Shown here one piece after another: positions 1-28,170 of a DNA stretch of 64,000 nt; within the stretch, counting starts at the first letter, position 1; each line of letters begins with the position of its first letter. Both the position numbers and the translations under genes were made by a program. This stretch comes from Odontesthes bonariensis. Its lineage: Eukaryota > Chordata > Actinopteri > Atheriniformes > Atherinopsidae. Under the pieces are notes generated by a model, which worked only from the letters and a program-made list of their open reading frames with translations, was not told the DNA's origin and did no database searches. Where the stretch lies: NCBI RefSeq assembly GCF_027942865.1, contig NC_134507.1:34215711-34279710 (forward strand), written 5' to 3'.

Positions 1-37
1 TAGCCTGATGCACTGCTCCCGCAGTGTCAAATACTCG

Positions 38-62
38 TACTCTGGTTTCTCTTCATAACGTA
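38..62 (+). pseudogene. 5' fragment of U5 snRNA at the left edge of the U1 array
   Basis: The stretch tactctggtttctcttca matches nucleotides 2-19 of vertebrate U5 snRNA exactly, and the next seven bases match at five positions (23 of 25 overall). The match stops where the U1 repeat unit begins (cacccacccacactggg). It covers only the 5' stem strand, without loop 1 or the Sm site, so it cannot be a working U5 gene. Its orientation is opposite to the U1 genes. Bases 1-37 would be U5 upstream flank, but too little is visible to test for a promoter. The identification rests on the remembered U5 sequence. Confidence 0.6.
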
Positions 63-376
63 CACCCACCCACACTGGGAAAATTCTTAGTTGAGGCAAA
101 CCCTCACGGCTTAATATCTCCAGTGCAGAAATGCTGCCGTATTCTCATCTCGTTGTTGCCATCACTAAGGCGACGCCCACCTGCCTGGGGTGACTGCACC
201 GTATGACCTCACCTGACAACTGCGCAGCTGCATATCAGCTGTGCAGACCTGCCGCAGCATTCAGCAAACCTTGCAAAACATGGGTTTTAAAGATGGAAAG
301 GTGTCGTTAAAGCAGAACCGCCAGGACAAAAACCAAGGTAGAGTTGCCCAGGGATATTCACGTTATACAGTCAAAT

Positions 377-540
377 CAGGGGAGAGCGCGAACGCAGTCC
401 CCCACTACCAGAAATTATGCAGTCGAGATTCCCACATTTAGGGAATTCGCAAGGGTCAGTACAGCCAGTGTGCAATGGCTGAGTCTCGTCCTGGGTGAAC
501 CACCTTCTTGATCATGGTATCTCCCCTGCCAGGTAAGTAT
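377..540 (-). ncRNA. rnu1: U1 snRNA, copy 1 (divergent, array edge)
   Basis: The minus strand begins ATACTTACCTGGCAGGGGAG, the universal U1 5' end whose ACUUACCUG pairs with 5' splice sites. The gene ends CGCTCTCCCCTG, giving exactly 164 nt. It contains the U1-70K loop (GATCAAGAAGG), the U1A loop (ATTGCAC), the Sm site AATTTCTGG and the stem-loop 4 TTCG tetraloop. U1 RNA with its proteins recognises 5' splice sites in the nucleus. This first copy differs from the array majority at three positions (near 440, 460 and 473), so it may be a pseudogene decaying at the edge. Confidence 0.85.
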
Positions 541-581
541 GAGTTGGAACTGTCAGAGGCTGACACCTCTTTTCCAGGTGC

Positions 582-601
582 CTCACTCGGCCGGACGGTG
601 C
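582..601 (-). promoter_or_regulatory. Candidate proximal sequence element (PSE) of U1, one per unit
   Basis: Read on the minus strand this is GCACCGTCCGGCCGAGTGAG, lying at -42 to -61 from the U1 start. That is where vertebrate snRNA genes carry the PSE bound by SNAPc, and the ACCGT...GAGTGAG ends resemble the human U1 PSE as I remember it. The same block recurs 42-61 bp upstream of every U1 copy, with changes in a few units (for example near 5570). A second AG-rich block at 564-580 is closer than usual. No convincing octamer or 3' box was found. Confidence 0.5.
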
Positions 602-1088
602 AGCAAATTCAACTGTCTGCAGTGCCATGCCAGCAGCTAACCTGAATCTGAAAAGCTTGCAGATTAAAACAGTCCGGCTTTTCTTCATCTTTCTGATCAG
701 TTCTTGTTTCAACAACCAAGGAATTTGGAGCACAAATTGATTTAGTTTTTCCACTCTCCCCGTCTCTAGAGCCACACCCACCCACACTGGGAAAATTCTT
801 AGTTGATGCAAACCCTCACGGCTTAATATCTCCAGTGCAGAAATGCTGCCGTATTCTCATCTCGTTGTTGCCATCACTAAGGCAACGCCCACCTGCCTGG
901 GGTGACTGCACCGTATGACCTCACCTGACAACTGCGCAGCTGCATATCAGCTGTGCAGACCTGCCGCAGCATTCAGCAAACCTTGCAAAACATGGGTTTT
1001 AAAGATGGAAAGGTGTCGTTAAAGCAGCAACGCCAGGACAAAAACCAAGGTAGAGTTGCCCAGGGATATTCACGTTATACAGTCAAAT

Positions 1089-1252
1089 CAGGGGAGAGCG
1101 CGAACGCAGTCCCCCACTACCAGAAATTATTTAGTCGAGATTCCCACATTTGGGGAATTCGCAAGGGTCAGTACAGCCGGTGTGCAATGGCTGAGCCTCG
1201 TCCTGGGTGAACCACCTTCTTGATCATGGTATCTCCCCTGCCAGGTAAGTAT
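1089..1252 (-). ncRNA. rnu1: U1 snRNA, copy 2
   Basis: Full-length 164-nt U1. It differs from the majority at two adjacent bases just before the Sm site: the RNA reads GACTAAATAATTTC instead of GACTGCATAATTTC. The splice-site-pairing 5' end is intact. Confidence 0.9.
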
Positions 1253-1800
1253 GAGTTGGAACTGTCAGAGGCTGACACCTCTTTTCCAGGTGCCTCACTC
1301 GGCCGGACGGTGCAGCAAATTCAACTGTCTGCAGTGCCATGCCAGCAGCTAACCTGAATCTGAAAAGCTTGCAGATTAAAACAGTCCGGCTTTTCTTCAT
1401 CTTTCTGATCAGTTTTTGTTTCAACAACCAAGGAACTTGGAGCACAAATTGATTTAGTTTTTCCACTCTCCCCGTCTCTAGAGCCACACCCACCCACACT
1501 GGGAAAATTCTTAGTTGAGCCAAACCTTCACGGCTTAATATCTCCAGTGCAGAAATGCTGACGTATTCTCATCTCGTTGTTGCCATCACTAAGGCAACGC
1601 CCACCTGCCTGGGGTGACTGCACCGTATGACCTCACCTGACAACTGCGCAGCTGCATATCAGCTGTGCAGACCTGCCGCAGCATTCAGCAAACCTTGCAA
1701 AACATGGGTTTTAAAGATGGAAAGGTGTCGTTAAAGCAGCAACGCCAGGACAAAAACCAAGGTAGAGTTGCCCAGGGATATTCACGTTATACAGTCAAAT

Positions 1801-1964
1801 CAGGGGAGAGCGCGAACGCAGTCCCCCACTACCAGAAATTATTTAGTCGAGATTCCCACATTTGGGGAATTCGCAAGGGTCAGTACAGCCGGTGTGCAAT
1901 GGCTGAGCCTCGTCCTGGGTGAACCACCTTCTTGATCATGGTATCTCCCCTGCCAGGTAAGTAT
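1801..1964 (-). ncRNA. rnu1: U1 snRNA, copy 3
   Basis: Full-length U1 with the same two-base change before the Sm site as its left neighbour. The two units are almost identical, so this is a recent local duplication. Confidence 0.9.
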
Positions 1965-2512
1965 GAGTTGGAACTGTCAGAGGCTGACACCTCTTTTCCA
2001 GGTGCCTCACTCGGCCGGACGGTGCAGCAAATTCAACTGTCTGCAGTGCCATGCCAGCAGCTAACCTGAATCTGAAAAGCTTGCAGATTAAAACAGTCCG
2101 GCTTTTCTTCATCTTTCTGATCAGTTTTTGTTTCAACAACCAAGGAACTTGGAGCACAAATTGATTTAGTTTTTCCACTCTCCCCGTCTCTAGAGCCACA
2201 CCCACCCACACTGGGAAAATTCTTAGTTGAGCCAAACCTTCAAGGCTTAATATCTCCAGTGCAGAAATGCTGCCGTATTCTCATCTCGTTGTTGCCATCA
2301 CTAAGGCAACGCCCACCTGCCTGGGGTGACTGCACCGTATGACCTCACCTGACAACTGCGCAGCTGCATATCAGCTGTGCAGACCTGCCGCAGCATTCAG
2401 CAAACCTTGCAAAACATGGGTTTTAAAGATGGAAAGGTGTCGTTAAAGCAGCAACGCCATGACAAAAACCAAGGTAGAGTTGCCCAGGAATATTTACGTT
2501 ATACAGTCAAAT

Positions 2513-2676
2513 CAGGGGAGAGCGCGAACGCAGTACCCCACTACCAGAAATTATGCAGTCGAGATTCCCACATTTGGGGAATTCGCAAGGGTCAGTACAG
2601 CCGGTGTGCAATGGCTGAGCCTCGTCCTGGGTGAACCACCTTCTTGATCATGGTATCTCCCCTGCCAGGTAAGTAT
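2513..2676 (-). ncRNA. rnu1: U1 snRNA, copy 4
   Basis: Full-length U1 with one change near 2534, in the G-run between the Sm site and stem-loop 4 (GGGGTACTG for GGGGGACTG). Confidence 0.91.
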
Positions 2677-3224
2677 GAGTTGGAACTGTCAGAGGCTGAC
2701 ACCTCTTTTCCAGGTGCCTCACTCGGCCGGACGGTGCAGCAAATTCAACTGTCTGCAGTGCCATGCCAGCAGCTAACCTGAATCTGAAAAGCTTGCAGAT
2801 TAAAACAGTCCGGCTTTTCTTCATCTTTCTGATCAGTTCTTGTTTCAACAACCAAGGAATTTGGAGCACAAATTGATTTAGTTTTTCCACTCTCCCCGTC
2901 TCTAGAGCCAAACCCACCCACACTGGGAAAATTCTTAGTTGAGGCAAAACCTCACGGCTTAATATCTCCAGTGCAGAAATGCTGCCGTATTCTCATCTCG
3001 TTGTTGCCATCACTAAGGCAACGCCCACCTGCCTGGGGTGACTGCACCGTATGACCTCACCTGACAACTGCGCAGCTGCATATCAGCTGTGCAGACCTGC
3101 CGCAGCATTCAGCAAACCTTGCAAAACATGGGTTTTAAAGATGGAAAGGTGTCGTTAAAGCAGCAACGCCAGGACAAAAACTAAGGTAGAGTTGCCCAGG
3201 GATATTTACGTTATACAGTCAAAT

Positions 3225-3388
3225 CAGGGGAGAGCGCGAACGCAGTCCCCCACAACCAGAAATTATGCAGTCGAGATTCCCACATTTGGGGAATTCGCAA
3301 GGGTCAGTACAGCCGGTGTGCAATGGCTGAGCCTCGTCCTGGGTGAACCACCTTCTTGATCATGGTATCTCCCCTGCCAGGTAAGTAT
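3225..3388 (-). ncRNA. rnu1: U1 snRNA, copy 5
   Basis: Full-length U1 with one change just 3' of the Sm site (GGTTGTGGG for GGTAGTGGG). The unit is nearly the same as the one two units further on, suggesting a two-unit duplication. Confidence 0.91.
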
Positions 3389-3936
3389 GAGTTGGAACTG
3401 TCAGAGGCTGACACCTCTTTTCCAGGTGCCTCACTCGGCCGGACGGTGCAGCAAATTCAACTGTCTGCATTGCTATGCCAGCAGCTAACCTGAATCTGAA
3501 AAGCTTGCAGATTAAAACAGTCCGGCTTTTCTTCATCTTTCTGATCAGTTCTTGTTTCAACAACCAAGGAATTTGGAGCACAAATTGATTTAGTTTTTCC
3601 TCTCTCCCCGTCTCTAGAGCCACACCCACCCACACTGGGAAAATTCTTAGTTGAGGCGAACCCTCACGGCTTAATATCTCCAGTGCAGAAATGCTGCCGT
3701 ATTCTCATCTCGTTGTTGCCATCACTAAGGCAACGCCCACCTGCCTGGGGTGACTGCACTGTATGACCTCACCTGACAACTGCGCAGCTGCATATCAGCT
3801 GTGCAGACCTGCCGCAGCATTCAGCAAACCTTGCAAAACATGGGTTTTAAAGATGGAAAGGTGTCATTAAAGCAGCAACGTCAGAACAAAAACCAAGGTA
3901 GAGTTGCCCAGGGATATTCACATTATACAGTCAAAT

Positions 3937-4100
3937 CAGGGGAGAGCGCGAACGCAGTCCCCCACTACCAGAAATTATGCAGTCGAGATTCCCACATTTG
4001 GGGAATTCGCAAGGGTCAGTACAGCCGGTGTGCAATGGCTGAGCCTCGTCCTGGGTGAACCACCTTCTTGATCATGGTATCTCCCCTGCCAGGTAAGTAT
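3937..4100 (-). ncRNA. rnu1: U1 snRNA, copy 6 (majority sequence)
   Basis: Full-length 164-nt U1 identical to the array majority sequence, with all protein-binding loops and the Sm site present. Confidence 0.94.
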
Positions 4101-4648
4101 GAGTTGGAACTGTCAGAGGCTGACACCTCTTTTCCAGGTGCCTCACTCGGCCGGACGGTGCAGCAAATTCAACTGTCTGCAGTGCCATGCCAGCAGCTAA
4201 CCTGAATCTGAAAAGCTTGCAGATTAAAACAGTCCGGCTTTTCTTCATCTTTCTGATCAGTTCTTGTTTCAACAACCAAGGAATTTGGAGCACAAATTGA
4301 TTTAGTTTTTCCACTCTCCCCGTCTCTAGAGCCACACCCACCCACACTGGGAAAATTCTTAGTTGAGGCAAACCCTCACGGCTTAATATCTCCAGTGCAG
4401 AAATGCTGCCGTATTCTCATCTCGTTGTTGCCATCACTAAGGCAACGCCCACCTGCCTGGGGTGACTGCACTGTATGACCTCACCTGACAACTGCGCAGC
4501 TGCATATCAGCTGTGCAGACCTGCCGCAGCATTCAGCAAACCTTGCAAAACATGGGTTTTAAAGATGGAAAGGTGTCGTTAAAGCAGCAACGCCAGGACA
4601 AAAACTAAGGTAGAGTTGCCCAGGGATATTTACGTTATACAGTCAAAT

Positions 4649-4812
4649 CAGGGGAGAGCGCGAACGCAGTCCCCCACTACCAGAAATTATGCAGTCGAGA
4701 TTCCCACATTTGGGGAATTCGCAAGGGTCAGTACAGCCGGTGTGCAATGGCTGAGCCTCGTCCTGGGTGAACCACCTTCTTGATCATGGTATCTCCCCTG
4801 CCAGGTAAGTAT
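4649..4812 (-). ncRNA. rnu1: U1 snRNA, copy 7 (majority sequence)
   Basis: Full-length U1 identical to the array majority. Its spacer shares the GIAM-type promoter variants with copy 5, two units to the left. Confidence 0.94.
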
Positions 4813-5360
4813 GAGTTGGAACTGTCAGAGGCTGACACCTCTTTTCCAGGTGCCTCACTCGGCCGGACGGTGCAGCAAATTCAACTGTCTGCATTGCTAT
4901 GCCAGCAGCTAACCTGAATCTGAAAAGCTTGCAGATTAAAACAGTCCGGCTTTTCTTCATCTTTCTGATCAGTTCTTGTTTCAACAACCAAGGAATTTGG
5001 AGCACAAATTGATTTAGTTTTTCCTCTCTCCCCATCTCTAGAGCCACACCCACCCACACTGGGAAAATTCTTAGTTGAGGCGAACCCTCACGGCTTAATA
5101 TCTCCAGTGCAGAAATGCTGCCGTATTCTCATCTCGTTGTTGCCATCACTAAGGCAACGCCCACCTGCCTGGGGTGACTGCACTGTATGACCTCACCTGA
5201 CAACTGCGCAGCTGCATATCAGCTGTGCAGACCTGCCGCAGCATTCAGCAAACCTTGCAAAACATGGGTTTTAAAGATGGAAAGGTGTCGTTAAAGCAGC
5301 AACGCCAGAACAAAAACCAAGGTAGAGTTGCCCAGGGATAATCACGTTATACAGTCAAAT

Positions 5361-5524
5361 CAGGGGAGAGCACGAACGCAGTCCCCCACTACCAGAAATT
5401 ATGCAGTTGAGATTCCCACATTTGGGGAATTCGCAAGGGTCAGTACAGCCGGTGTGCAATGGCTGAGCCTCGTCCTGGGTGAACCACCTTCTTGATCATG
5501 GTATCTCCCCTGCCAGGTAAGTAT
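5361..5524 (-). ncRNA. rnu1: U1 snRNA, copy 8 (variant)
   Basis: Full-length U1 with two changes: one in the stem-loop 4 stem next to the tetraloop (TTCGTGC for TTCGCGC) and one before the Sm site (CTCAACTG for CTCGACTG). Its PSE region is also altered, so activity is less certain. Confidence 0.87.
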
Positions 5525-6071
5525 GAGTTGGAACTGTCAGAGGCTGACACCTCTTTTCCAGGTGCCTCACTAGGCCAGACGGTGCAGCAAATTCAACTGT
5601 CTGCAGTGCCATGCCAGCAGCTAACCTGAATCTGAAAAGCTTGCAGATTAAAACAGTCCGGCTTTTCTTCATCTTTCTGATCAGTTCTTGTTTCAACAAC
5701 CAAGGAACTTGGAGCACAAATTGATTTAGTTTTTCCACGCTCCCCATCTCTAGAGCCACACCCACCCACACTGGGAAAATTCTTAGTTGAGGCAAACCCT
5801 CACGGCTTAATATCTCCAGTGCAGAAATGCTGCCGTATTCTCATCTCGTTGTTGCCATCACTAAGGCAACGCCCACCTGCCTGGGGTGACTGCACCGTAT
5901 GACCTCACCTGACAACTGCGCAGCTGCATATCAGCTGTGCAGACCTGCCGCAGCATTCAGCAAACCTTGCAAAACTTGGGTTTTAAAGATGGAAAGGTGT
6001 CATTAAAGCAGCAACGTCAGAACAAAACCAAGGTAGAGTTGCCCAGGGATATTCACATTATACAGTCAAAT

Positions 6072-6235
6072 CAGGGGAGAGCGCGAACGCAGTCCCCCAC
6101 TACCAGAAATTATGCAGTCGAGATTCCCACATTTGGGGAATTCGCAAGGGTCAGTACAGCCGGTGTGCAATGGCTGAGCCTCGTCCTGGGTGAACCACCT
6201 TCTTGATCATGGTATCTCCCCTGCCAGGTAAGTAT
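6072..6235 (-). ncRNA. rnu1: U1 snRNA, copy 9 (majority sequence)
   Basis: Full-length U1 identical to the majority. The unit is 711 bp because of a one-base deletion in the spacer near 6028, outside the gene. Confidence 0.94.
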
Positions 6236-6783
6236 GAGTTGGAACTGTCAGAGGCTGACACCTCTTTTCCAGGTGCCTCACTCGGCCGGACGGTGCAGCA
6301 AATTCAACTGTCTGCAGTGCCATGCCAGCAGCTAACCTGAATCTGAAAAGCTTGCAGATTAAAACAGTCCGGCTTTTCTTCATCTTTCTGATCAGTTCTT
6401 GTTTCAACAACCAAGGAATTTGGAGCACAAATTGATTTAGTTTTTCCACTCTCCCCGTCTCTAGAGCCACACCCACCCACACTGGGAAAATTCTTAGTTG
6501 AGGCAAACCCTCACGGCTTAATATCTCCAGTGCAGAAATGCTGCCATATTCTCATCTCGTTGTTGCCATCACTAAGGCAACGCCCACCTGCCTGGGGTGA
6601 CTGCACTGTATGACCTCACCTGACAACTGCGCAGCTGCATATCAGCTGTGCAGACCTGCCGCAGCATTCAGCAAACCTTGCAAAACATGGGTTTTAAAGA
6701 TGGAAAGGTGTCGTTAAAGCAGCAACGCCAGGACAAAAACCAAGGTAGAGTTGCCCAGGGATATTTACGTTATACAGTCAAAT

Positions 6784-6947
6784 CAGGGGAGAGCGCGAAC
6801 GCAGTCCCCCACTACCAGAAATTATTTAGTCGAGATTCCCACATTTGGGGAATTCGCAAGGGTCAATACAGCCGGTGTGCAATGGCTGAGCCTCGTCCTG
6901 GGTGAACCACCTTCTTGATCATGGTATCTCCCCTGCCAGGTAAGTAT
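6784..6947 (-). ncRNA. rnu1: U1 snRNA, copy 10 (variant)
   Basis: Full-length U1 with the two-base change before the Sm site also seen in copies 2 and 3, plus one change near 6866 in the stem 2-3 region. Sharing with distant copies points to gene conversion or older shared ancestry. Confidence 0.88.
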
Positions 6948-7495
6948 GAGTTGGAACTGTCAGAGGCTGACACCTCTTTTCCAGGTGCCTCACTCGGCCG
7001 GACGGTGCATCAAATTCAACTGTCTGCAGTGCCATGCCAGCAGCTAACCTGAATCTGAAAAGCTTGCAGATTAAAACAGTCCGGCTTTTCTTCATCTTTC
7101 TGATCAGTTCTTGTTTCAACAACCAAGGAATTTGGAGCACAAATTGATTTAGTTTTTCCACTCTCCCCATCTCTAGAGCCACACCCACCCACACTGGGAA
7201 AATTCTTAGTTGAGGCAAACCCTCACGGCTTAATATCTCCAGTGCAGAAATGCTGCCGTATTCTCATCTCGTTGTTGCCATCACTAAGGCAACGCCCACC
7301 TGCCTGGGGTGACTGCACCGTATGACCTCACCTGACAACTGCGCAGCTGCATATCAGCTGTGCAGACCTGCCGCAGCATTCAGCAAACCTTGCAAAACAT
7401 GGGTTTTAAAGATGGAAAGGTGTCGTTAAAGCAGCAACGCCATGACAAAAACCAAGGTAGAGTTGCCCAGGGATATTTACGTTATACAGTCAAAT

Positions 7496-7659
7496 CAGGG
7501 GAGAGCGCGAACGCAGTCCCCCACTACCAGAAATTATGCAGTCGAGATTCCCACATTTGGGGAATTCGCAAGGGTCAGTACAGCCGGTGTGCAATGGCTG
7601 AGCCTCGTCCTGGGTGAACCACCTTCTTGATCATGGTATCTCCCCTGCCAGGTAAGTAT
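7496..7659 (-). ncRNA. rnu1: U1 snRNA, copy 11 (majority sequence)
   Basis: Full-length U1 identical to the majority. Its promoter lies in the first unit of the seven-unit higher-order repeat. Confidence 0.94.
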
Positions 7660-8207
7660 GAGTTGGAACTGTCAGAGGCTGACACCTCTTTTCCAGGTGC
7701 CTCACTCGGCCGGACGGTGCAGCAAATTCAACTGTCTGCAGTGCCATGCCAGCAGCTAACCTGAATCTGAAAAGCTTGCAGATTAAAACAGTCCGGCTTT
7801 TCTTCATCTTTCTGATCAGTTTTTGTTTCAACAACCAAGGAACTTGGAGCACAAATTGATTTAGTTTTTCCACTCTCCCCATCTCTAGAGCCACACCCAC
7901 CCACACTGGGAAAATTCTTAGTTGAGGCAAACCCTCACGGCTTAATATCTCCAGTGCAGAAATGCTGCCGTATTCTCATCTCGTTGTTGCCATCACTAAG
8001 GCAACGCCCACATGCCTGGGGTGACTGCACCGTATGACCTCACCTGACAACTGCGCAGCTGCATATCAGCTGTGCAGACCTGCCGCAGCATTCAGCAAAC
8101 CTTGCAAAACATGGGTTTTAAAGATGGAAAGGTGTCGTTAAAGCAGCAACGCCAGAACAAAAACCAAGGTAGAGTTGCCCAGGGATAGTCACGTTATACA
8201 GTCAAAT

Positions 8208-8371
8208 CAGGGGAGAGCGCAAACGCAGTCCCCCACTACCAGAAATTATGCAGTCGAGATTCCCACATTTGGGGAATTCGCAAGGGTCAGTACAGCCGGT
8301 GTGCAATGGCTGAGCCTCGTCCTGGGTGAACCACCTTCTTGATCATGGTATCTCCCCTGCCAGGTAAGTAT
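8208..8371 (-). ncRNA. rnu1: U1 snRNA, copy 12 (UUUG tetraloop variant)
   Basis: Full-length U1 with one change: the stem-loop 4 tetraloop reads TTTG instead of TTCG. The same variant sits 4984 bp away in copies 19 and 26, and in copy 22. Confidence 0.92.
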
Positions 8372-8919
8372 GAATTGGAACTGTCAGAGGCTGACACCTC
8401 TTTTCCAGGTGCCTCACTCGGCCGGACGGTGCAGCAAATTCAACTGTCAGCAGTGCCATGCCAGCAGCTAACCTGAATCTGAAAAGCTTGCAGATTAAAA
8501 CAGTCCGGCTTTTCTTCATCTTTCTGATCAGTTTTTGTTTCAACAACCAAGGAACTTGGAGCACAAATTGATTTAGTTTTTCCACTCTCCCCATCTCTAG
8601 AGCCACACCCACCCACACTGGGAAAATTCTTAGTTGAGGCAAACCCTCACGGCTTAATATCTCCAGTGCAGAAATGCTGCCGTATTCTCATCTCGTTGTT
8701 GCCATCACTAAGGCAACGCCCACCTGCCTGGGGTGACTGCACCGTATGACCTCACCTGACAACTGCGCAGCTGCATATCAGCTGTGCAGACCTGCCGCAG
8801 CATTCAGCAAACCTTGCAAAACATGGGTTTTAAAGATGGAAAGGTGTCGTTAAAGCAGCAACGCCAGGACAAAAACCAAGGTAGAGTTGCCCAGGGATAT
8901 TCACGTTATACAGTCAAAT

Positions 8920-9083
8920 CAGGGGAGAGCGCGAACGCAGTCCCCCACTACCAGAAATTATGCAGTCGAGATTCCCACATTTGGGGAATTCGCAAGGGTC
9001 AGTACAGCCGGTGTGCAATGGCTGAGCCTCGTCCTGGGTGAACCACCTTCTTGATCATGGTATCTCCCCTGCCAGGTAAGTAT
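8920..9083 (-). ncRNA. rnu1: U1 snRNA, copy 13 (majority sequence)
   Basis: Full-length U1 identical to the majority sequence. Confidence 0.94.
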
Positions 9084-9631
9084 GAGTTGGAACTGTCAGA
9101 GGCTGACAACTCTTTTCCAGGTGCCTCACTCGGCCGGACGGTGCAGCAAATTCAACTGTCTGCAGTGCCATGCCAGCAGCTAACCTGAATCTGAAAAGCT
9201 TGCAGATTAAAACAGTCCGGCTTTTCTTCATCTTTCTGATCAGTTCTTGTTTCAACAACCAAGGAATTTGGAGCACAAATTGATTTAGTTTTTCCACTCT
9301 CCCCGTCTCTAGAGCCACACCCACCCACACTGGGAAAATTCTTAGTTGAGGCAAACCGTCACGGCTTAATATCTCCAGTGCAGAAATGCTGCCGTATTCT
9401 CATCTCGTTGTTGCCATCACTAAGGCAACGCCCACCTCCCTGGGGTGACTGCACCGTATGACCTCACCTGACAACTGCGCAGCTGCATATCAGCTGTGCA
9501 GACCTGCCGCAGCATTCAGCAAACCTTGCAAAACATGGGTTTTAAAGATGGAAAGGTGTCGTTAAAGCAGCAACGCCAGAACAAAAACCAAGGTAGAGTT
9601 GCCCAGGGATATTCACGTTATACAGTCAAAT

Positions 9632-9795
9632 CAGGGGAGAGCGCGAACGCAGTCCCCCACTACCAGAAATTATGCAGTCGAGATTCCCACATTTGGGGAA
9701 TTCGCAAGGGTCAGTACAGCCGGTGTGCAATGGCTGAGCCTCGTCCTGGGTGAACCACCTTCTTGATCATGGTATCTCCCCTGCCAGGTAAGTAT
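9632..9795 (-). ncRNA. rnu1: U1 snRNA, copy 14 (majority sequence)
   Basis: Full-length U1 identical to the majority. A promoter variant near 9814 (gaggatgac) is shared with copy 21, one higher-order period away. Confidence 0.94.
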
Positions 9796-10343
9796 GAGTT
9801 GGAACTGTCAGAGGATGACACCTCTTTTCCAGGTGCCTCACTCGGCCGGACGGTGCAGCAAATTCAACTGTCAGCAGTGCCATGCCAGCAGCTAACCTGA
9901 ATCTGAAAAGCTTGCAGATTAAAACAGTCCGGCTTTTCTTCATCTTTCTGATCAGTTTTTGTTTCAACAACCAAGGAACTTGGAGCACAAATTGATTTAG
10001 TTTTTCCACTCTCCCCGTCTCTAGAGCCACACCCACCCACACTGGGAAAATTCTTAGTTGAGGCAAACCCTCACGGCTTAATATCTCCAGTGCAGAAATG
10101 CTGCCGTATTCTCATCTCGTTGTTGCCATCACTAAGGCAACGCCCACCTGCCTGGGGTGACTGCACCGTATGACCTCACCTGACAACTGCGCAGCTGCAT
10201 ATCAGCTGTGCAGACCTGCCGCAGCATTCAGCAAACCTTGCAAAACATGAGTTTTAAAGATGGAAAGGTGTCGTTAAAGCAGCAACGCCAGGACAAAAAC
10301 CAAGGTAGAGTTGCCCAGGGATATTTACGTTATACAGTCAAAT

Positions 10344-10507
10344 CAGGGGAGAGCGCGAACGCAGTCCCCCACTACCAGAAATTATGCAGTCGAGATTCCC
10401 ACATTTGGGGAATTCGCAAGGGTCAGTACAGCCGGTGTGCAATGGCTGAGCCTCGTCCTGGGTGAACCACCTTCTTGATCATGGTATCTCCCCTGCCAGG
10501 TAAGTAT
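10344..10507 (-). ncRNA. rnu1: U1 snRNA, copy 15 (majority sequence)
   Basis: Full-length U1 identical to the majority. The upstream variant ttttccatgtg is shared only with copy 23. Confidence 0.94.
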
Positions 10508-11055
10508 GAGTTGGAACTGTCAGAGGCTGACACCTCTTTTCCATGTGCCTCACTCGGCCGGACGGTGCAGCAAATTCAACTTTCTGCAGTGCCATGCCAG
10601 CAGCTAACCTGAATCTGAAAAGCTTGCAGATTAAAACAGTCCGGCTTTTCTTCATCTTTCTGATCAGTTCTTGTTTCAACAACCAAGGAATTTGGAGCAC
10701 AAATTGATTTAGTTTTTCCACTCTCCCCATCTCTAGAGCCACACCCACCCACACTGGGAAAATTCTTAGTTGAGCCAAACCCTCACGGCTTAATATCTCC
10801 AGTGCAGAAATGCTGCCGTATTCTCATCTCGTTGTTGCCATCACTAAGGCAACGCCCACCTGCCTGGGGTGACTGCACCGTATGACCTCACCTGACAACT
10901 GCGCAGCTGCATATCAGCTGTGCAGACCTGCCGCAGCATTCAGCAAACCTTGCAAAACATGGGTTTTAAAGATGGAAAGGTGTCGTTAAAGCAGCAACGT
11001 CAGAACAAAAACCAAGGTAGAGTTGCCCAGGGATATTCACATTATACAGTCAAAT

Positions 11056-11219
11056 CAGGGGAGAGCGCGAACGCAGTCCCCCACTACCAGAAATTATGCA
11101 GTCGAGATTCCCACATTTGGGGAATTCGCAAGGGTCAGTACAGCCGGTGTGCAATGGCTGAGCCTCGTCCTGGGTGAACCACCTTCTTGATCATGGTATC
11201 TCCCCTGCCAGGTAAGTAT
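11056..11219 (-). ncRNA. rnu1: U1 snRNA, copy 16 (majority sequence)
   Basis: Full-length U1 identical to the majority sequence. Confidence 0.94.
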
Positions 11220-11767
11220 GAGTTGGAACTGTCAGAGGCTGACAACTCTTTTCCAGGTGCCTCACTCGGCCGGACGGTGCAGCAAATTCAACTGTCTGCA
11301 GTGCCATGCCAGCAGCTAACCTGAATCTGAAAAGCTTGCAGATTAAAACAGTCCGGCTTTTCTTCATCTTTCTGATCAGTTCTTGTTTCAACAACCAAGG
11401 AATTTGGAGCACAAATTGATTTAGTTTTTCCACTCTCCCCGTCTCTAGAGCCACACCCACCCACACTGGGAAAATTCTTAGTTGAGGCAAACCCTCACGG
11501 CTTAATATCTCCAGTGCAGAAATGCTGCCGTATTCTCATCTCGTTGTTGCCATCACTAAGGCAACGCCCACCTCCCTGGGGTGACTGCACCGTATGACCT
11601 CACCTGACAACTGCGCAGCTGCATATCAGCTGTGCAGACCTGCCGCAGCATTCAGCAAACCTTGCAAAACATGAGTTTTAAAGATGGAAAGGTGTCGTTA
11701 AAGCAGCAACGTCAGAACAAAAACCAAGGTAGAGTTGCCCAGGGATATTCACATTATACAGTCAAAT

Positions 11768-11931
11768 CAGGGGAGAGCGCGAACGCAGTCCCCCACTACC
11801 AGAAATTATGCAGTCGAGATTCCCACATTTGGGGAATTCGCAAGGGTCAGTACAGCCGGTGTGCAATGGCTGAGCCTCGTCCTGGGTGAACCACCTTCTT
11901 GATCATGGTATCTCCCCTGCCAGGTAAGTAT
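11768..11931 (-). ncRNA. rnu1: U1 snRNA, copy 17 (majority sequence)
   Basis: Full-length U1 identical to the majority. Its spacer mixes variants of the two preceding units, which suggests conversion. Confidence 0.94.
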
Positions 11932-12479
11932 GAGTTGGAACTGTCAGAGGCTGACAACTCTTTTCCAGGTGCCTCACTCGGCCGGACGGTGCAGCAAATT
12001 CAACTGTCTGCAGTGCCATGCCAGCAGCTAACCTGAATCTGAAAAGCTTGCAGATTAAAACAGTCCGGCTTTTCTTCATCTTTCTGATCAGTTCTTGTTT
12101 CAACAACCAAGGAATTTGGAGCACAAATTGATTTAGTTTTTCCACTCTCCCCGTCTCTAGAGCCACACCCACCCACACTGGGAAAATTCTTAGTTGAGGC
12201 AAACCGTCACGGCTTAATATCTCCAGTGCAGAAATGCTGCCGTATTCTCATCTCGTTGTTGCCATCACTAAGGCAACGCCCACCTCCCTGGGGTGACTGC
12301 ACCGTATGACCTCACCTGACAACTGCGCAGCTGCATATCAGCTGTGCAGACCTGCCGCAGCATTCAGCAAACCTTGCAAAACATGGGTTTTAAAGATGGA
12401 AAGGTGTCGTTAAAGCAGCAACGCCAGAACAAAAACCAAGGTAGAGTTGCCCAGGGATATTCACGTTATACAGTCAAAT

Positions 12480-12643
12480 CAGGGGAGAGCGCGAACGCAG
12501 TCCCCCACTACCAGAAATTATGCAGTCGAGATTCCCACATTTGGGGAATTCGCAAGGGTCAGTACAGCCGGTGTGCAATGGCTGAGCCTCGTCCTGGGTG
12601 AACCACCTTCTTGATCATGGTATCTCCCCTGCCAGGTAAGTAT
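12480..12643 (-). ncRNA. rnu1: U1 snRNA, copy 18 (majority sequence)
   Basis: Full-length U1 identical to the majority. Its promoter opens the second higher-order block. Confidence 0.94.
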
Positions 12644-13191
12644 GAGTTGGAACTGTCAGAGGCTGACACCTCTTTTCCAGGTGCCTCACTCGGCCGGACG
12701 GTGCAGCAAATTCAACTGTCTGCAGTGCCATGCCAGCAGCTAACCTGAATCTGAAAAGCTTGCAGATTAAAACAGTCCGGCTTTTCTTCATCTTTCTGAT
12801 CAGTTTTTGTTTCAACAACCAAGGAACTTGGAGCACAAATTGATTTAGTTTTTCCACTCTCCCCATCTCTAGAGCCACACCCACCCACACTGGGAAAATT
12901 CTTAGTTGAGGCAAACCCTCACGGCTTAATATCTCCAGTGCAGAAATGCTGCCGTATTCTCATCTCGTTGTTGCCATCACTAAGGCAACGCCCACATGCC
13001 TGGGGTGACTGCACCGTATGACCTCACCTGACAACTGCGCAGCTGCATATCAGCTGTGCAGACCTGCCGCAGCATTCAGCAAACCTTGCAAAACATGGGT
13101 TTTAAAGATGGAAAGGTGTCGTTAAAGCAGCAACGCCAGAACAAAAACCAAGGTAGAGTTGCCCAGGGATAGTCACGTTATACAGTCAAAT

Positions 13192-13355
13192 CAGGGGAGA
13201 GCGCAAACGCAGTCCCCCACTACCAGAAATTATGCAGTCGAGATTCCCACATTTGGGGAATTCGCAAGGGTCAGTACAGCCGGTGTGCAATGGCTGAGCC
13301 TCGTCCTGGGTGAACCACCTTCTTGATCATGGTATCTCCCCTGCCAGGTAAGTAT
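13192..13355 (-). ncRNA. rnu1: U1 snRNA, copy 19 (UUUG tetraloop variant)
   Basis: Full-length U1 with the stem-loop 4 TTTG variant, exactly 4984 bp from copy 12. Confidence 0.92.
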
Positions 13356-13903
13356 GAATTGGAACTGTCAGAGGCTGACACCTCTTTTCCAGGTGCCTCA
13401 CTCGGCCGGACGGTGCAGCAAATTCAACTGTCAGCAGTGCCATGCCAGCAGCTAACCTGAATCTGAAAAGCTTGCAGATTAAAACAGTCCGGCTTTTCTT
13501 CATCTTTCTGATCAGTTTTTGTTTCAACAACCAAGGAACTTGGAGCACAAATTGATTTAGTTTTTCCACTCTCCCCATCTCTAGAGCCACACCCACCCAC
13601 ACTGGGAAAATTCTTAGTTGAGGCAAACCCTCACGGCTTAATATCTCCAGTGCAGAAATGCTGCCGTATTCTCATCTCGTTGTTGCCATCACTAAGGCAA
13701 CGCCCACCTGCCTGGGGTGACTGCACCGTATGACCTCACCTGACAACTGCGCAGCTGCATATCAGCTGTGCAGACCTGCCGCAGCATTCAGCAAACCTTG
13801 CAAAACATGGGTTTTAAAGATGGAAAGGTGTCGTTAAAGCAGCAACGCCAGGACAAAAACCAAGGTAGAGTTGCCCAGGGATATTCACGTTATACAGTCA
13901 AAT

Positions 13904-14067
13904 CAGGGGAGAGCGCGAACGCAGTCCCCCACTACCAGAAATTATGCAGTCGAGATTCCCACATTTGGGGAATTCGCAAGGGTCAGTACAGCCGGTGTGC
14001 AATGGCTGAGCCTCGTCCTGGGTGAACCACCTTCTTGATCATGGTATCTCCCCTGCCAGGTAAGTAT
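13904..14067 (-). ncRNA. rnu1: U1 snRNA, copy 20 (majority sequence)
   Basis: Full-length U1 identical to the majority sequence. Confidence 0.94.
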
Positions 14068-14615
14068 GAGTTGGAACTGTCAGAGGCTGACAACTCTTTT
14101 CCAGGTGCCTCACTCGGCCGGACGGTGCAGCAAATTCAACTGTCTGCAGTGCCATGCCAGCAGCTAACCTGAATCTGAAAAGCTTGCAGATTAAAACAGT
14201 CCGGCTTTTCTTCATCTTTCTGATCAGTTCTTGTTTCAACAACCAAGGAATTTGGAGCACAAATTGATTTAGTTTTTCCACTCTCCCCGTCTCTAGAGCC
14301 ACACCCACCCACACTGGGAAAATTCTTAGTTGAGGCAAACCGTCACGGCTTAATATCTCCAGTGCAGAAATGCTGCCGTATTCTCATCTCGTTGTTGCCA
14401 TCACTAAGGCAACGCCCACCTCCCTGGGGTGACTGCACCGTATGACCTCACCTGACAACTGCGCAGCTGCATATCAGCTGTGCAGACCTGCCGCAGCATT
14501 CAGCAAACCTTGCAAAACATGGGTTTTAAAGATGGAAAGGTGTCGTTAAAGCAGCAACGCCAGAACAAAAACCAAGGTAGAGTTGCCCAGGGATATTCAC
14601 GTTATACAGTCAAAT

Positions 14616-14779
14616 CAGGGGAGAGCGCGAACGCAGTCCCCCACTACCAGAAATTATGCAGTCGAGATTCCCACATTTGGGGAATTCGCAAGGGTCAGTA
14701 CAGCCGGTGTGCAATGGCTGAGCCTCGTCCTGGGTGAACCACCTTCTTGATCATGGTATCTCCCCTGCCAGGTAAGTAT
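14616..14779 (-). ncRNA. rnu1: U1 snRNA, copy 21 (majority sequence)
   Basis: Full-length U1 identical to the majority. The unit upstream of it changes from fourth-unit to first-unit variants, marking an exchange point. Confidence 0.94.
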
Positions 14780-15327
14780 GAGTTGGAACTGTCAGAGGAT
14801 GACACCTCTTTTCCAGGTGCCTCACTCGGCCGGACGGTGCAGCAAATTCAACTGTCTGCAGTGCCATGCCAGCAGCTAACCTGAATCTGAAAAGCTTGCA
14901 GATTAAAACAGTCCGGCTTTTCTTCATCTTTCTGATCAGTTTTTGTTTCAACAACCAAGGAACTTGGAGCACAAATTGATTTAGTTTTTCCACTCTCCCC
15001 ATCTCTAGAGCCACACCCACCCACACTGGGAAAATTCTTAGTTGAGGCAAACCCTCACGGCTTAATATCTCCAGTGCAGAAATGCTGCCGTATTCTCATC
15101 TCGTTGTTGCCATCACTAAGGCAACGCCCACATGCCTGGGGTGACTGCACCGTATGACCTCACCTGACAACTGCGCAGCTGCATATCAGCTGTGCAGACC
15201 TGCCGCAGCATTCAGCAAACCTTGCAAAACATGGGTTTTAAAGATGGAAAGGTGTCGTTAAAGCAGCAACGCCAGAACAAAAACCAAGGTAGAGTTGCCC
15301 AGGGATAGTCACGTTATACAGTCAAAT

Positions 15328-15491
15328 CAGGGGAGAGCGCAAACGCAGTCCCCCACTACCAGAAATTATGCAGTCGAGATTCCCACATTTGGGGAATTCG
15401 CAAGGGTCAGTACAGCCGGTGTGCAATGGCTGAGCCTCGTCCTGGGTGAACCACCTTCTTGATCATGGTATCTCCCCTGCCAGGTAAGTAT
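15328..15491 (-). ncRNA. rnu1: U1 snRNA, copy 22 (UUUG tetraloop variant)
   Basis: Full-length U1 with the TTTG tetraloop. It is an extra copy of this type outside the 4984-bp register, produced by the internal exchange in block 2. Confidence 0.92.
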
Positions 15492-16039
15492 GAGTTGGAA
15501 CTGTCAGAGGCTGACACCTCTTTTCCAGGTGCCTCACTCGGCCGGACGGTGCAGCAAATTCAACTGTCAGCAGTGCCATGCCAGCAGCTAACCTGAATCT
15601 GAAAAGCTTGCAGATTAAAACAGTCCGGCTTTTCTTCATCTTTCTGATCAGTTTTTGTTTCAACAACCAAGGAACTTGGAGCACAAATTGATTTAGTTTT
15701 TCCACTCTCCCCGTCTCTAGAGCCACACCCACCCACACTGGGAAAATTCTTAGTTGAGGCAAACCCTCACGGCTTAATATCTCCAGTGCAGAAATGCTGC
15801 CGTATTCTCATCTCGTTGTTGCCATCACTAAGGCAACGCCCACCTGCCTGGGGTGACTGCACCGTATGACCTCACCTGACAACTGCGCAGCTGCATATCA
15901 GCTGTGCAGACCTGCCGCAGCATTCAGCAAACCTTGCAAAACATGAGTTTTAAAGATGGAAAGGTGTCGTTAAAGCAGCAACGCCAGGACAAAAACCAAG
16001 GTAGAGTTGCCCAGGGATATTTACGTTATACAGTCAAAT

Positions 16040-16203
16040 CAGGGGAGAGCGCGAACGCAGTCCCCCACTACCAGAAATTATGCAGTCGAGATTCCCACAT
16101 TTGGGGAATTCGCAAGGGTCAGTACAGCCGGTGTGCAATGGCTGAGCCTCGTCCTGGGTGAACCACCTTCTTGATCATGGTATCTCCCCTGCCAGGTAAG
16201 TAT
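16040..16203 (-). ncRNA. rnu1: U1 snRNA, copy 23 (majority sequence)
   Basis: Full-length U1 identical to the majority. It shares its upstream variants with copy 15, eight units away. Confidence 0.94.
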
Positions 16204-16751
16204 GAGTTGGAACTGTCAGAGGCTGACACCTCTTTTCCATGTGCCTCACTCGGCCGGACGGTGCAGCAAATTCAACTGTCTGCAGTGCCATGCCAGCAGC
16301 TAACCTGAATCTGAAAAGCTTGCAGATTAAAACAGTCCGGCTTTTCTTCATCTTTCTGATCAGTTCTTGTTTCAACAACCAAGGAATTTGGAGCACAAAT
16401 TGATTTAGTTTTTCCACTCTCCCCATCTCTAGAGCCACACCCACCCACACTGGGAAAATTCTTAGTTGAGCCAAACCCTCACGGCTTAATATCTCCAGTG
16501 CAGAAATGCTGCCGTATTCTCATCTCGTTGTTGCCATCACTAAGGCAACGCCCACCTGCCTGGGGTGACTGCACCGTATGACCTCACCTGACAACTGCGC
16601 AGCTGCATATCAGCTGTGCAGACCTGCCGCAGCATTCAGCAAACCTTGCAAAACATGGGTTTTAAAGATGGAAAGGTGTCGTTAAAGCAGCAACGTCAGA
16701 ACAAAAACCAAGGTAGAGTTGCCCAGGGATATTCACATTATACAGTCAAAT

Positions 16752-16915
16752 CAGGGGAGAGCGCGAACGCAGTCCCCCACTACCAGAAATTATGCAGTCG
16801 AGATTCCCACATTTGGGGAATTCGCAAGGGTCAGTACAGCCGGTGTGCAATGGCTGAGCCTCGTCCTGGGTGAACCACCTTCTTGATCATGGTATCTCCC
16901 CTGCCAGGTAAGTAT
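16752..16915 (-). ncRNA. rnu1: U1 snRNA, copy 24 (majority sequence)
   Basis: Full-length U1 identical to the majority sequence. Confidence 0.94.
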
Positions 16916-17463
16916 GAGTTGGAACTGTCAGAGGCTGACAACTCTTTTCCAGGTGCCTCACTCGGCCGGACGGTGCAGCAAATTCAACTGTCTGCAGTGC
17001 CATGCCAGCAGCTAACCTGAATCTGAAAAGCTTGCAGATTAAAACAGTCCGGCTTTTCTTCATCTTTCTGATCAGTTCTTGTTTCAACAACCAAGGAATT
17101 TGGAGCACAAATTGATTTAGTTTTTCCACTCTCCCCGTCTCTAGAGCCACACCCACCCACACTGGGAAAATTCTTAGTTGAGGCAAACCGTCACGGCTTA
17201 ATATCTCCAGTGCAGAAATGCTGCCGTATTCTCATCTCGTTGTTGCCATCACTAAGGCAACGCCCACCTCCCTGGGGTGACTGCACCGTATGACCTCACC
17301 TGACAACTGCGCAGCTGCATATCAGCTGTGCAGACCTGCCGCAGCATTCAGCAAACCTTGCAAAACATGGGTTTTAAAGATGGAAAGGTGTCGTTAAAGC
17401 AGCAACGCCAGAACAAAAACCAAGGTAGAGTTGCCCAGGGATATTCACGTTATACAGTCAAAT

Positions 17464-17627
17464 CAGGGGAGAGCGCGAACGCAGTCCCCCACTACCAGAA
17501 ATTATGCAGTCGAGATTCCCACATTTGGGGAATTCGCAAGGGTCAGTACAGCCGGTGTGCAATGGCTGAGCCTCGTCCTGGGTGAACCACCTTCTTGATC
17601 ATGGTATCTCCCCTGCCAGGTAAGTAT
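17464..17627 (-). ncRNA. rnu1: U1 snRNA, copy 25 (majority sequence)
   Basis: Full-length U1 identical to the majority. Its promoter opens the third, partial higher-order block. Confidence 0.94.
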
Positions 17628-18175
17628 GAGTTGGAACTGTCAGAGGCTGACACCTCTTTTCCAGGTGCCTCACTCGGCCGGACGGTGCAGCAAATTCAAC
17701 TGTCTGCAGTGCCATGCCAGCAGCTAACCTGAATCTGAAAAGCTTGCAGATTAAAACAGTCCGGCTTTTCTTCATCTTTCTGATCAGTTTTTGTTTCAAC
17801 AACCAAGGAACTTGGAGCACAAATTGATTTAGTTTTTCCACTCTCCCCATCTCTAGAGCCACACCCACCCACACTGGGAAAATTCTTAGTTGAGGCAAAC
17901 CCTCACGGCTTAATATCTCCAGTGCAGAAATGCTGCCGTATTCTCATCTCGTTGTTGCCATCACTAAGGCAACGCCCACATGCCTGGGGTGACTGCACCG
18001 TATGACCTCACCTGACAACTGCGCAGCTGCATATCAGCTGTGCAGACCTGCCGCAGCATTCAGCAAACCTTGCAAAACATGGGTTTTAAAGATGGAAAGG
18101 TGTCGTTAAAGCAGCAACGCCAGAACAAAAACCAAGGTAGAGTTGCCCAGGGATAGTCACGTTATACAGTCAAAT

Positions 18176-18339
18176 CAGGGGAGAGCGCAAACGCAGTCCC
18201 CCACTACCAGAAATTATGCAGTCGAGATTCCCACATTTGGGGAATTCGCAAGGGTCAGTACAGCCGGTGTGCAATGGCTGAGCCTCGTCCTGGGTGAACC
18301 ACCTTCTTGATCATGGTATCTCCCCTGCCAGGTAAGTAT
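18176..18339 (-). ncRNA. rnu1: U1 snRNA, copy 26 (UUUG tetraloop variant)
   Basis: Full-length U1 with the TTTG tetraloop, 4984 bp from copy 19. Confidence 0.92.
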
Positions 18340-18887
18340 GAATTGGAACTGTCAGAGGCTGACACCTCTTTTCCAGGTGCCTCACTCGGCCGGACGGTGC
18401 AGCAAATTCAACTGTCAGCAGTGCCATGCCAGCAGCTAACCTGAATCTGAAAAGCTTGCAGATTAAAACAGTCCGGCTTTTCTTCATCTTTCTGATCAGT
18501 TTTTGTTTCAACAACCAAGGAACTTGGAGCACAAATTGATTTAGTTTATCCACTCTCCCCGTCTCTAGAGCCACACCCACCCACACTGGGAAAATTCTTA
18601 GTTGAGGCAAACCCTCACGGCTTAATATCTCCAGTGCAGAAATGCTGCCGTATTCTCATCTCGTTGTTGCCATCACTAAGGCAACAACCACCTGCCTGGG
18701 GTGACTGCACTGTATGACCTCACCTGACAACTGCGCAGCTGCATATCAGCTGTGCAGACCTGCCGCAGCATTCAGCAAACCTTGCAAAACATGGGTTTTA
18801 AAGATGGAAAGGTGTCGTTAAAGCAGCAACGCCAGGACAAAAACCAAGGTAGAGTTGCCCAGGGATATTCACGTTATACAGTCAAAT

Positions 18888-19051
18888 CAGGGGAGAGCGC
18901 GAACGCAGTCCCCCACTACCAGAAATTACGCAGTCGAGATTCCCACATTTGGGGAATTCGCAAGGGTCAGTACAGCCGGTGTGCAATGGCTGAGCCTCGT
19001 CCTGGGTGAACCACCTTCTTGATCATGATATCTCCCCTGCCAGGTAAGTAT
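18888..19051 (-). ncRNA. rnu1: U1 snRNA, copy 27 (last copy, variant)
   Basis: Full-length U1 with two changes: GAGATATCATG for GAGATACCATG in stem-loop 1, and one base in the segment before the Sm site (CTGCGTAATTTC for CTGCATAATTTC). About 312 bp of its upstream spacer remain before the array ends at the LINE. Confidence 0.88.
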
Positions 19052-19441
19052 GAGTTGGAACTGTCAGAGGCTGACACCTCTTTTCCAGGTGCCTCACTCG
19101 GCCGGACGGTGCAGCAAATTCAACTGTCTGCAGTGCCATGCCAGCAGCTAACCTGAATCTGAAAAGCTTGCAGATTAAAACAGTCCGGCTTTTCTTCATC
19201 TTTCTGATCAGTTCTTGTTTCAACAACCAAGGAATTTGGAGCACAAATTGATTTAGTTTTTCCACTCTCCCCGTCTCTAGAGCCACACCCACCCACACTG
19301 GGAAAATTCTTAGTTGAGGCAAACCCTCACGGCTTAATATCTCCAGTGCAGACATGCTGCCGTATTCAGCAAAACTTGCTAAACATCCACTTCATTGTTC
19401 ACATGTGCTCTTTTTTTTCATCTTTTTGCTGCCATCTCTAA

Positions 19442-19906
19442 TAGTGATGTGTCGGTCGCGAACGATCCGGCTCTAAGAGCCGGCTCTTTGAAGTGAACGA
19501 CAGGAACCGGCTCCATAATGGGAGCCATTTTGGGATCCTATTTGGGAGACGTTTTTTTTCTTTCAGTATCTCGCTGTCTCTCTGCCTCCCTGTCAGTGCC
19601 ACAGAGCCGACAGTTTTTTTCCCACGTCATTTTTTTTGTCCTTCGGACCGGTGCCTCGCTGTCTCTCCCATCTCCCTCCCCCTCCCTCTCCCTCTCCCTC
19701 TCCCTCTCCCTCTCCCTCTCCCTCTCCCTCTCCCTCTCCCTCTCCCTCTCCCTCACTCTCCCTCTCCTTGCGCGTTTTGCTCTGCTTCTGCCAGTGCTAG
19801 ACGGGGATATATGGGGAGCCGTTGTGGAGCCGAAAGAGACGGCTCTCCACAGTAAGTCGAGCCATTAGAGCCGCATCTGGAAAAAGACCCGAAAATCCCA
19901 TCACTA
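19442..19906 (+). mobile_element. hAT MITE inside the LINE
   Basis: The ends are tagtgatgtg and catcacta, giving TIRs that start TAGTGATG. The flanks carry a perfect 8-bp duplication, atctctaa (19434-19441 and 19907-19914), the hAT hallmark. The inside holds the fish hAT-type segment with ccggctct and agagccggctctttgaag, and a CCCTCT microsatellite. No transposase is encoded. The identical target duplication argues for a fairly young insertion. Confidence 0.88.
19675..19757 (+). repeat. (CCCTCT)n microsatellite
   Basis: About 14 copies of the hexamer lie inside the hAT MITE. They produce long but meaningless leucine-proline and arginine-glutamate open frames on both strands. Confidence 0.95.
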
Positions 19907-20572: not shown

Positions 20573-21017
20573 TGTCACAGCCCCTGGGGCTTGTGCTGGG
20601 CATGTCTCTCTCCTCCCTCTTTCTTTGTCTCCTCCCTGAGACCAGGAAGCTGATTGGAGTGTGCAGCAGTGATTCCGGCAGCTCGTACACCTGGCCGTCT
20701 GTGGGAGTGGTTTTAAGCCGCCTTATTTTGTTAATTCTTCCCTTTTGGTTCCTGGCTGGGTTTGTGAGAACAGCATTGTGTTTTGGGTTTGTTTGGTTTA
20801 TCCTTTTGTTATGTTTCGCACCATACAACACCTTTGCCGTACATTTATGCTCCATAACACCATTACACTACTGATGACTGATTGCCACATCCCATTGTTT
20901 TACTTTTGTTGAATTCGTAGCTTAAGTTCGAATTGTTTAAATAAATTTGATTTCCTTATAACTTACAAACCGCGTGCTTCCTCCTTTTTGATAAGGCTTT
21001 TGAGCCAGGTCGTGTCA
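20573..21017 (+). repeat. 5' LTR (445 bp)
   Basis: Begins TGTCACAG and ends GTCGTGTCA, with a polyadenylation-like aataaa near 20940. The primer-binding site follows within a few bases. Confidence 0.92.
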
Positions 21018-23090: not shown

Positions 23091-23099
23091 GGGGGGGTT

Positions 23100-26000: not shown

Positions 26001-26289
26001 TTTTTTTCCCAAAAAGTTTAACTCCTACCAACTAAATTATTCAACCATCGAAAAGGAGGCACTAGCTTTGATATGGGCTTTGAAACATTTTGACGTGTAT
26101 GTAGTTTCAGGCACTACACCCGTGGTGGTCTACACGGATCACAATCCACTAACCTTTTTGAACTCCTTGCAGTGTCCAAACCAGAGACTGATACGATGGT
26201 CTCTGATGTTGCAGTCTTATGGGTTGGACATCCGATTCATAAAAGGATCAGAGAATGTGGTGGCGGATGCCCTCTCTCGGGCCCATTAG
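23100..26289 (+). pseudogene. pol region of the Gmr1-type element (fossil): protease, integrase, RT, RNase H
   Basis: In order, the sequence shows a retroviral-type aspartic protease segment, an integrase with an N-terminal HH-CC finger and part of the core and C-terminal domain, then a reverse transcriptase with a YLDD-type centre and an RNase H with its tether. The order integrase-RT is reversed relative to ordinary Gypsy elements. The region has several breaks and is not functional. Confidence 0.8.
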
Positions 26290-28162: not shown

Positions 28163-28170
28163 GTTTTGCC

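Follow-up and report, generated by a model that had tools for sequence, protein, structure and literature searches.

A tandem U1 snRNA gene array with a more uniform core and a more divergent left end in Odontesthes bonariensis

A 64,000-nucleotide stretch of the Odontesthes bonariensis genome (assembly GCF_027942865.1, contig NC_134507.1, positions 34,215,711 to 34,279,710 of the forward strand), referred to below as the window, carries numerous copies of the gene for U1 small nuclear RNA (snRNA) at its left end. This raises the question of whether these copies form a genuine array of intact genes, how such an array is kept uniform, and which cells it might supply with U1. An initial annotation of the bare sequence had proposed a 27-copy array with a 712-bp unit at 63..19363, composed of complete U1 genes of which fifteen were alike. 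Taken as a whole, the locus is very probably best explained as a tandem U1 snRNA gene array with a uniform core that contains block duplications and with a divergent left end.

Twenty-seven U1 genes in 712-bp units

A cmscan search of the whole 64-kb window with the Rfam U1 model RF00003 at gathering thresholds returned 27 matches, all on the minus strand between 377 and 19051 and each covering model positions 1-166 of 166, which is the number and orientation that the annotation had led to expect from Infernal. With scores of 143.2-158.2 bits (E values from 2e-36 to 9.1e-41), all 27 copies lie above the gathering score of 69.5 bits, and the U1 array is real, far beyond chance. Each gene measures 164 nt, and gene starts lie 712 bp apart throughout, the sole exception being a 711-bp step from copy 8 to copy 9. 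The 27 full units occupy 63-19285 and are followed by a truncated one; since BLAST puts the right edge at 19367, the coordinates first proposed were correct within a few bases. The array as a whole can be described as follows.

63..19367, minus strand: tandem array of 712-bp units with 27 complete U1 genes read right to left, closed on the right by a truncated unit

A large tandem array of complete U1 genes is supported by these data, and the sequence of the U1 gene is indeed identical in 15 of the 27 copies, with nine haplotypes in total. As whole units, 23 of the 27 sequences are distinct, and 58 columns vary across them. The array is missing from the list produced by Tandem Repeats Finder because the longest period considered there was 500. 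To the right of the last gene (19052-64000), RF00003 gives no U1 match at E values up to 1, and the search for further U1 or other snRNA genes in this part ended with eight matches at that level, of which three are tRNAs that pass gathering, five fall below it and none is an snRNA. U6 and 5S had no match anywhere in the window in the Rfam scans, and the exact U1 pattern gave 0 matches each in a collection of viral contigs and a collection of genome contigs.

Four short motifs are invariant in all 27 copies, namely the 5' end ATACTTACCTG, the loop GATCAAGAAG, the sequence CATTGCAC and the Sm-type sequence AATTTCTGG. In line with established knowledge, these are taken to be, in the same order, the end that pairs with 5' splice sites, the U1-70K loop, the U1A loop and the Sm site. 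While 13 of the 164 U1 positions vary among the copies, none of these 13 falls inside the 38 positions of the four binding motifs (P = 0.028). Of the 46 pairs in the Rfam consensus, 42 are retained in the major sequence and four are lost. The retained pairs comprise 28 without any change, 3 with a change on one side and 11 in which both sides have changed but pairing persists, the last class being what would be expected for a structure that is retained during sequence drift.

Copy variants and unit exchange

The individual copies, numbered from the left, are listed below together with their departures from the major sequence.

377..540, minus strand: U1 copy 1; G57A, C74T, C101T; pair 57-82 broken; 151.7 bits
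1089..1252, minus strand: U1 copy 2; G121A, C122A; two helix H pairs broken; 145.1 bits
1801..1964, minus strand: U1 copy 3; G121A, C122A; two helix H pairs broken; 145.1 bits
2513..2676, minus strand: U1 copy 4; G142T; stem-loop 4 pair broken; 154.9 bits
3225..3388, minus strand: U1 copy 5; A135T at an unpaired position; 157 bits
3937..4100, minus strand: U1 copy 6; major sequence; 158.2 bits
4649..4812, minus strand: U1 copy 7; major sequence
5361..5524, minus strand: U1 copy 8; G117A, C153T; pair 92-117 broken; two changes in the stretch of the candidate proximal sequence element (PSE); 149.9 bits
6072..6235, minus strand: U1 copy 9; major sequence; 711-bp step from copy 8
6784..6947, minus strand: U1 copy 10; C82T, G121A, C122A; two helix H pairs broken; 143.2 bits
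7496..7659, minus strand: U1 copy 11; major sequence
8208..8371, minus strand: U1 copy 12; C151T, stem-loop 4 tetraloop UUCG to UUUG; 157.3 bits
8920..9083, minus strand: U1 copy 13; major sequence
9632..9795, minus strand: U1 copy 14; major sequence
10344..10507, minus strand: U1 copy 15; major sequence
11056..11219, minus strand: U1 copy 16; major sequence
11768..11931, minus strand: U1 copy 17; major sequence
12480..12643, minus strand: U1 copy 18; major sequence
13192..13355, minus strand: U1 copy 19; C151T
13904..14067, minus strand: U1 copy 20; major sequence
14616..14779, minus strand: U1 copy 21; major sequence
15328..15491, minus strand: U1 copy 22; C151T
16040..16203, minus strand: U1 copy 23; major sequence
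16752..16915, minus strand: U1 copy 24; major sequence
17464..17627, minus strand: U1 copy 25; major sequence
18176..18339, minus strand: U1 copy 26; C151T
18888..19051, minus strand: U1 copy 27; C24T, A123G; no pair broken; 154.6 bits

Two variants recur. The tetraloop change C151T, from UUCG to UUUG, is found in four copies (12, 19, 22 and 26), and the double change G121A/C122A in three (2, 3 and 10), where it costs two pairs in the helix connecting the 5' with the 3' portion of the cloverleaf. Beyond the pairs already lost in the major sequence, 21 of the 27 copies have no further broken pair, while helix pairs are broken in the remaining six (1, 2, 3, 4, 8 and 10; one pair in each of copies 1, 4 and 8), all of which lie within units 1-10. 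These six copies do not stand for six independent events because copies 2 and 3 share one U1 sequence, their units differing at 4 positions as a whole. The proposal that every unit holds a complete U1 gene stands with regard to length (27/27 at 164 nt, motifs invariant) and has to be qualified for these six copies among the leftmost ten units.

At the level of whole units, units 12 and 19, 13 and 20, 16 and 24, and 18 and 25 form identical pairs, and two long blocks recur without any difference.

7479..9872, no strand assigned: exact block of 2,394 bp, repeated at 12463-14856, 7 units apart
11675-13563, no strand assigned: second exact block, 1,889 bp, repeated at 16659-18547, also 7 units apart

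The longest exact run thus amounts to 2,394 bp (2,397 alignment columns), a length reached by none of 2,000 shuffled unit orders, in which the longest run had a mean of 1,044 and a maximum of 2,151 columns. Units 1-10 differ from each other at 12.7 positions in the pairwise mean and units 11-26 at 7.7, with unit 27 being 6-14 differences away from the other units; private variants, gaps included, fall into units 1-10 and 27 in 30 of 32 cases, and only 2 occur in units 11-26. Hence, the core (units 11-26) is more uniform and the low-coordinate part (units 1-10) more divergent. Assemblers are generally known to err at identical units and at exact repeats such as those of 2,394 bp, and the copy number or order could conceivably be an artefact of collapsed or falsely repeated units. 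This is, however, very improbable, as 23 of the 27 unit sequences are distinct, with 58 variable columns, and both edges of the array are distinct as well.

The locus consists of near-identical units in head-to-tail order with block duplication, as is characteristic of a concertedly evolving tandem snRNA array. The variant pattern, from which the mechanism is inferred, is the one expected if unequal exchange acts preferentially in the interior: such exchange, along with gene conversion, may maintain uniformity in the core, while the left end would escape and decay. A similar case is the primate RNU2 array, in which tandem snRNA genes are likewise kept similar and the edges altered, although it consists of U2 genes in a unit that we take to be larger, as opposed to U1 genes in 712 bp here. 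Concerted evolution with remodelled junctions is reported for RNU2 (cited in PMC4291461).

Constraint, transcription and a candidate role

In the core, the diversity of U1 is 0.0024 versus 0.0133 in the spacer, with variable sites at 1/164 and 21/549 positions, respectively. For units 1-10 the corresponding values are 0.0155 versus 0.0178 and 10/164 versus 33/549, so that U1 looks constrained in the core and not in the left part, a contrast that is a lead only, and not a test, because the division into units 1-10 and 11-26 was picked after the unit differences had been seen. Over the whole array, variants in U1 tend to be shared by fewer copies than those in the spacer (Mann-Whitney P = 0.031), and a comparison of singletons with the rest between U1 and spacer variants gives a Fisher P of 0.056.

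Both the small gap in units 1-10 and the choice of the split after the fact weigh against the proposed explanation of the locus, and so do several further results. With all 27 copies included, the gap between U1 (0.0086) and spacer (0.0157) is modest, and U1 takes an unexceptional rank of 79 among 713 circular windows; whole-array diversity was rejected as proof of selection, with 79/713 windows being as low or lower. The minimum-energy fold of the single-stranded major U1 sequence departs from the Rfam structure (z -1.25), and 19 of 200 shuffles fold as well, which is not significant. The remaining points concern transcription signals. According to the initial annotation, all copies keep a candidate PSE at the right distance. 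The stretch from -61 to -44 upstream of the gene is identical in 26 of 27 copies (copy 8 with its two changes is the exception, and copy 10 has one change at -63, just outside the stretch), which bears out distance and conservation; the motif itself does not rise above chance. Scored with a published consensus of the human type (PMC5493778), the candidate at -61 fits 7/12 positions and is equalled by 545 of 1000 shuffles, where fish PSEs may differ from the human consensus, and at least eight other sense-strand sites in the unit outscore it (8 versus 7 of 12). The candidate PSE is thus right in place and not established as a motif.

Other signals scored with human consensus sequences behave alike: the 3' box reaches 8/12 (472/1000 shuffles as good), and in the region from -330 to -151 the octamer, Staf and Sp1 matches are equalled in 443/500, 388/500 and 449/500 shuffles, respectively. 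All of these matches were rejected as support, and with PSE, 3' box, octamer, Staf and Sp1 at chance level, transcription is not evident from the sequence. A scan with a different set of motif strings found neither an octamer (up to one mismatch) nor a GC box. In the same scan, the surroundings of -61 gave no PSE in sense orientation at up to three mismatches, and the 3' box was matched best on the strand opposite to the U1 gene. In one study of fish U2 and U5 genes, PSE elements emerged from alignments of the fish genes with one another, and the octamer was absent at the expected distance (PMC3464664).

Variants of the type C>T or G>A affect 11 of the 44 CpG positions, compared with 14 of the 311 C/G positions outside CpG (odds ratio 7, P = 4e-5), while the observed/expected ratio of CpG is 0.49 in the array versus 0.44 in the remaining window. 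The simplest reading of this excess suggests methylation of the array in at least part of the germline. The same excess would be compatible with a silent, decaying array, in which once-active U1 genes, now methylated, have multiplied like a satellite through unequal exchange and the cell draws its U1 from other loci, and the broken helix pairs in 6 of 27 copies, all in units 1-10, the near-equal variability of U1 and spacer in these units and the promoter motifs at chance would fit as well. Nevertheless, this scenario is unlikely in view of the single variable U1 site in the core as compared with 21 in its spacer, the four binding motifs without a variable site and the 15 identical U1 genes; moreover, methylation restricted to sperm would yield the same CpG signal in an array that is active in oocytes. 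The array is genuine and largely intact, with a uniform core and a divergent end.

In a working array, every unit would be equipped with a separate RNA polymerase II snRNA promoter and a separate 3' end signal, and the capped U1 RNA made from it would enter normal U1 snRNPs that pair with 5' splice sites, with the copy number translating into U1 dosage. Such an array, methylated in part of the germline, might mainly supply the oocyte or early embryo, analogous to the U1 genes on zebrafish chromosome 4. Supply to these stages is plausible because it has precedent in zebrafish chromosome 4 Region-2 and in Xenopus. Maternal-specific U1 genes in Region-2 were reportedly described by Pagano, Dekker et al. 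in 2020. This region contains maternal-specific U1 and U6 genes, and somatic U1 genes are located elsewhere (PMC11075544). The present locus is similar in that many U1 genes are gathered in one teleost region among repetitive elements. Yet, Region-2 has maternal U6 and 5S genes alongside U1, whereas no U6 or 5S match was found in the window.

The embryonic U1 array of X. laevis has a unit of roughly 1.8 kb and several hundred copies; the array described here shares the clustering of many U1 genes with the Xenopus arrays and differs from this one by its shorter unit (712 bp) and fewer copies. Xenopus U1 isoforms differ between oocytes or embryos and adults (PMC4291461), and in X. tropicalis chromosome 1 carries about 20 copies of U1 (PMC10361878). 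In fish, clusters of U1 snDNA have been detected by fluorescence in situ hybridization (FISH) in numerous species, among them 19 cichlids, five Astyanax and hake (PMC4696792) as well as Carassius (PMC11079324), with some U1 copies being linked to U2 in hake and a few other fish (PMC4696792). Clustering of U1 in a teleost is common to these cases and the present array, but the former are cytogenetic clusters with some U1-U2 linkage, whereas no other snRNA gene was found in the window. Both the array type and the proposed developmental role thus have precedent.

Alternatively, the array could be the main somatic, all-stage source of U1 without developmental specialisation. This is possible, if on balance doubtful. 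The major sequence is a standard 164-nt U1 with all binding motifs, and a single U1 cluster was seen by FISH in 19 cichlid species (PMC4696792). The maternal nature of the zebrafish Region-2 U1 genes, with somatic ones elsewhere (PMC11075544), points in the other direction, and the CpG excess would speak against constantly open chromatin in the germline.

The copy-specific variants, the block structure and the decaying end make the locus a usable system to study which units of a multicopy snRNA locus give rise to transcripts and by what means its uniformity is maintained. With C151T and G121A/C122A as tags, small-RNA reads could be assigned to parts of the array, and maternal versus somatic U1 supply could be addressed directly. 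The partner of U1 stem-loop 4 is SF3A1. A far more speculative idea, to which we give little credence, is that a maternal locus methylated outside oogenesis provides eggs with their own set of U1 snRNPs, in which the minor forms with UUUG (four copies) or an opened helix H (three copies) would be expressed and show altered junction or SF3A1 contacts.

Array edges and neighbouring elements

The two ends of the array are delimited by the following features.

1..62, no strand assigned: left flank, not unit sequence, no match to the unit
19286..19386, no strand assigned: truncated unit and degenerate remnant at the right edge; BLAST alignment to 19367, 85% over 19346-19386 (41 bp)

The array had been thought possibly to run on leftward, which is not borne out, as 1-62 does not match the unit. 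It appears to end there, 62 bases being too few to exclude an interruption, and both boundaries lie inside the window as far as these bases can show. A 20-residue minus-strand open frame in 1-60 has no Pfam or PDB match.

Just beyond the degenerate right edge follows a presumably hAT-like element of 465 bp (19442-19906). It has TAGTGATG termini with 15 matches among the first 30 terminal bases, is flanked by a perfect target duplication of 8 bp, ATCTCTAA, and contains a CTCTCC microsatellite. Further to the right, a long terminal repeat (LTR) retrotransposon spans 20623-27621, its 395-bp stretch 20623-21017 being repeated at 27227-27621 with 96.5% identity. Upstream of its reverse transcriptase (24950-25792) lie an H2C2 match (54.8 bits, in 23090-24001) and an rve match (32.0 bits, just below the cut-off of 32.6, in 24005-24421); we take this integrase-before-reverse-transcriptase order to be the reversed order of Gmr1-like fish elements. 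Long minus-strand reverse transcriptase frames are located at 28023-30353, where an endonuclease domain indicates the type of a long interspersed nuclear element, and at 42150-44459, where the frame also matches Pfam ALKBH8_N, probably a retroelement stretch inside the Pfam model. A frame at 31720-32118 with a sub-threshold match to the Sleeping Beauty transposase helix-turn-helix domain (25 bits versus a cut-off of 43) is likely a Tc1-type remnant, and the region 34075-35951 with a PIF1-type helicase frame, preceded by a frame without Pfam match, is presumably Helitron-like.

Among the remaining features are a DUF1373 frame (48648-49040, 98.9 bits) and, downstream of it, a Ser-Gly-Tyr-rich frame (53117-53653) without Pfam match that contains 7.3 copies of a 27-bp repeat. 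The DUF1373 gene and the types of mobile element in the window are in keeping with a fish genome. Two 194-bp repeats (37648-37841 and 38780-38973, 90% identical) each carry a tRNA-Pro-like gene, with the anticodons TGG and CGG, and represent either a repeat that derives from a tRNA or two genuine tRNA genes. Finally, there is a strong tRNA-Lys (TTT) match of 70 bits at 46045-46117 on the minus strand.

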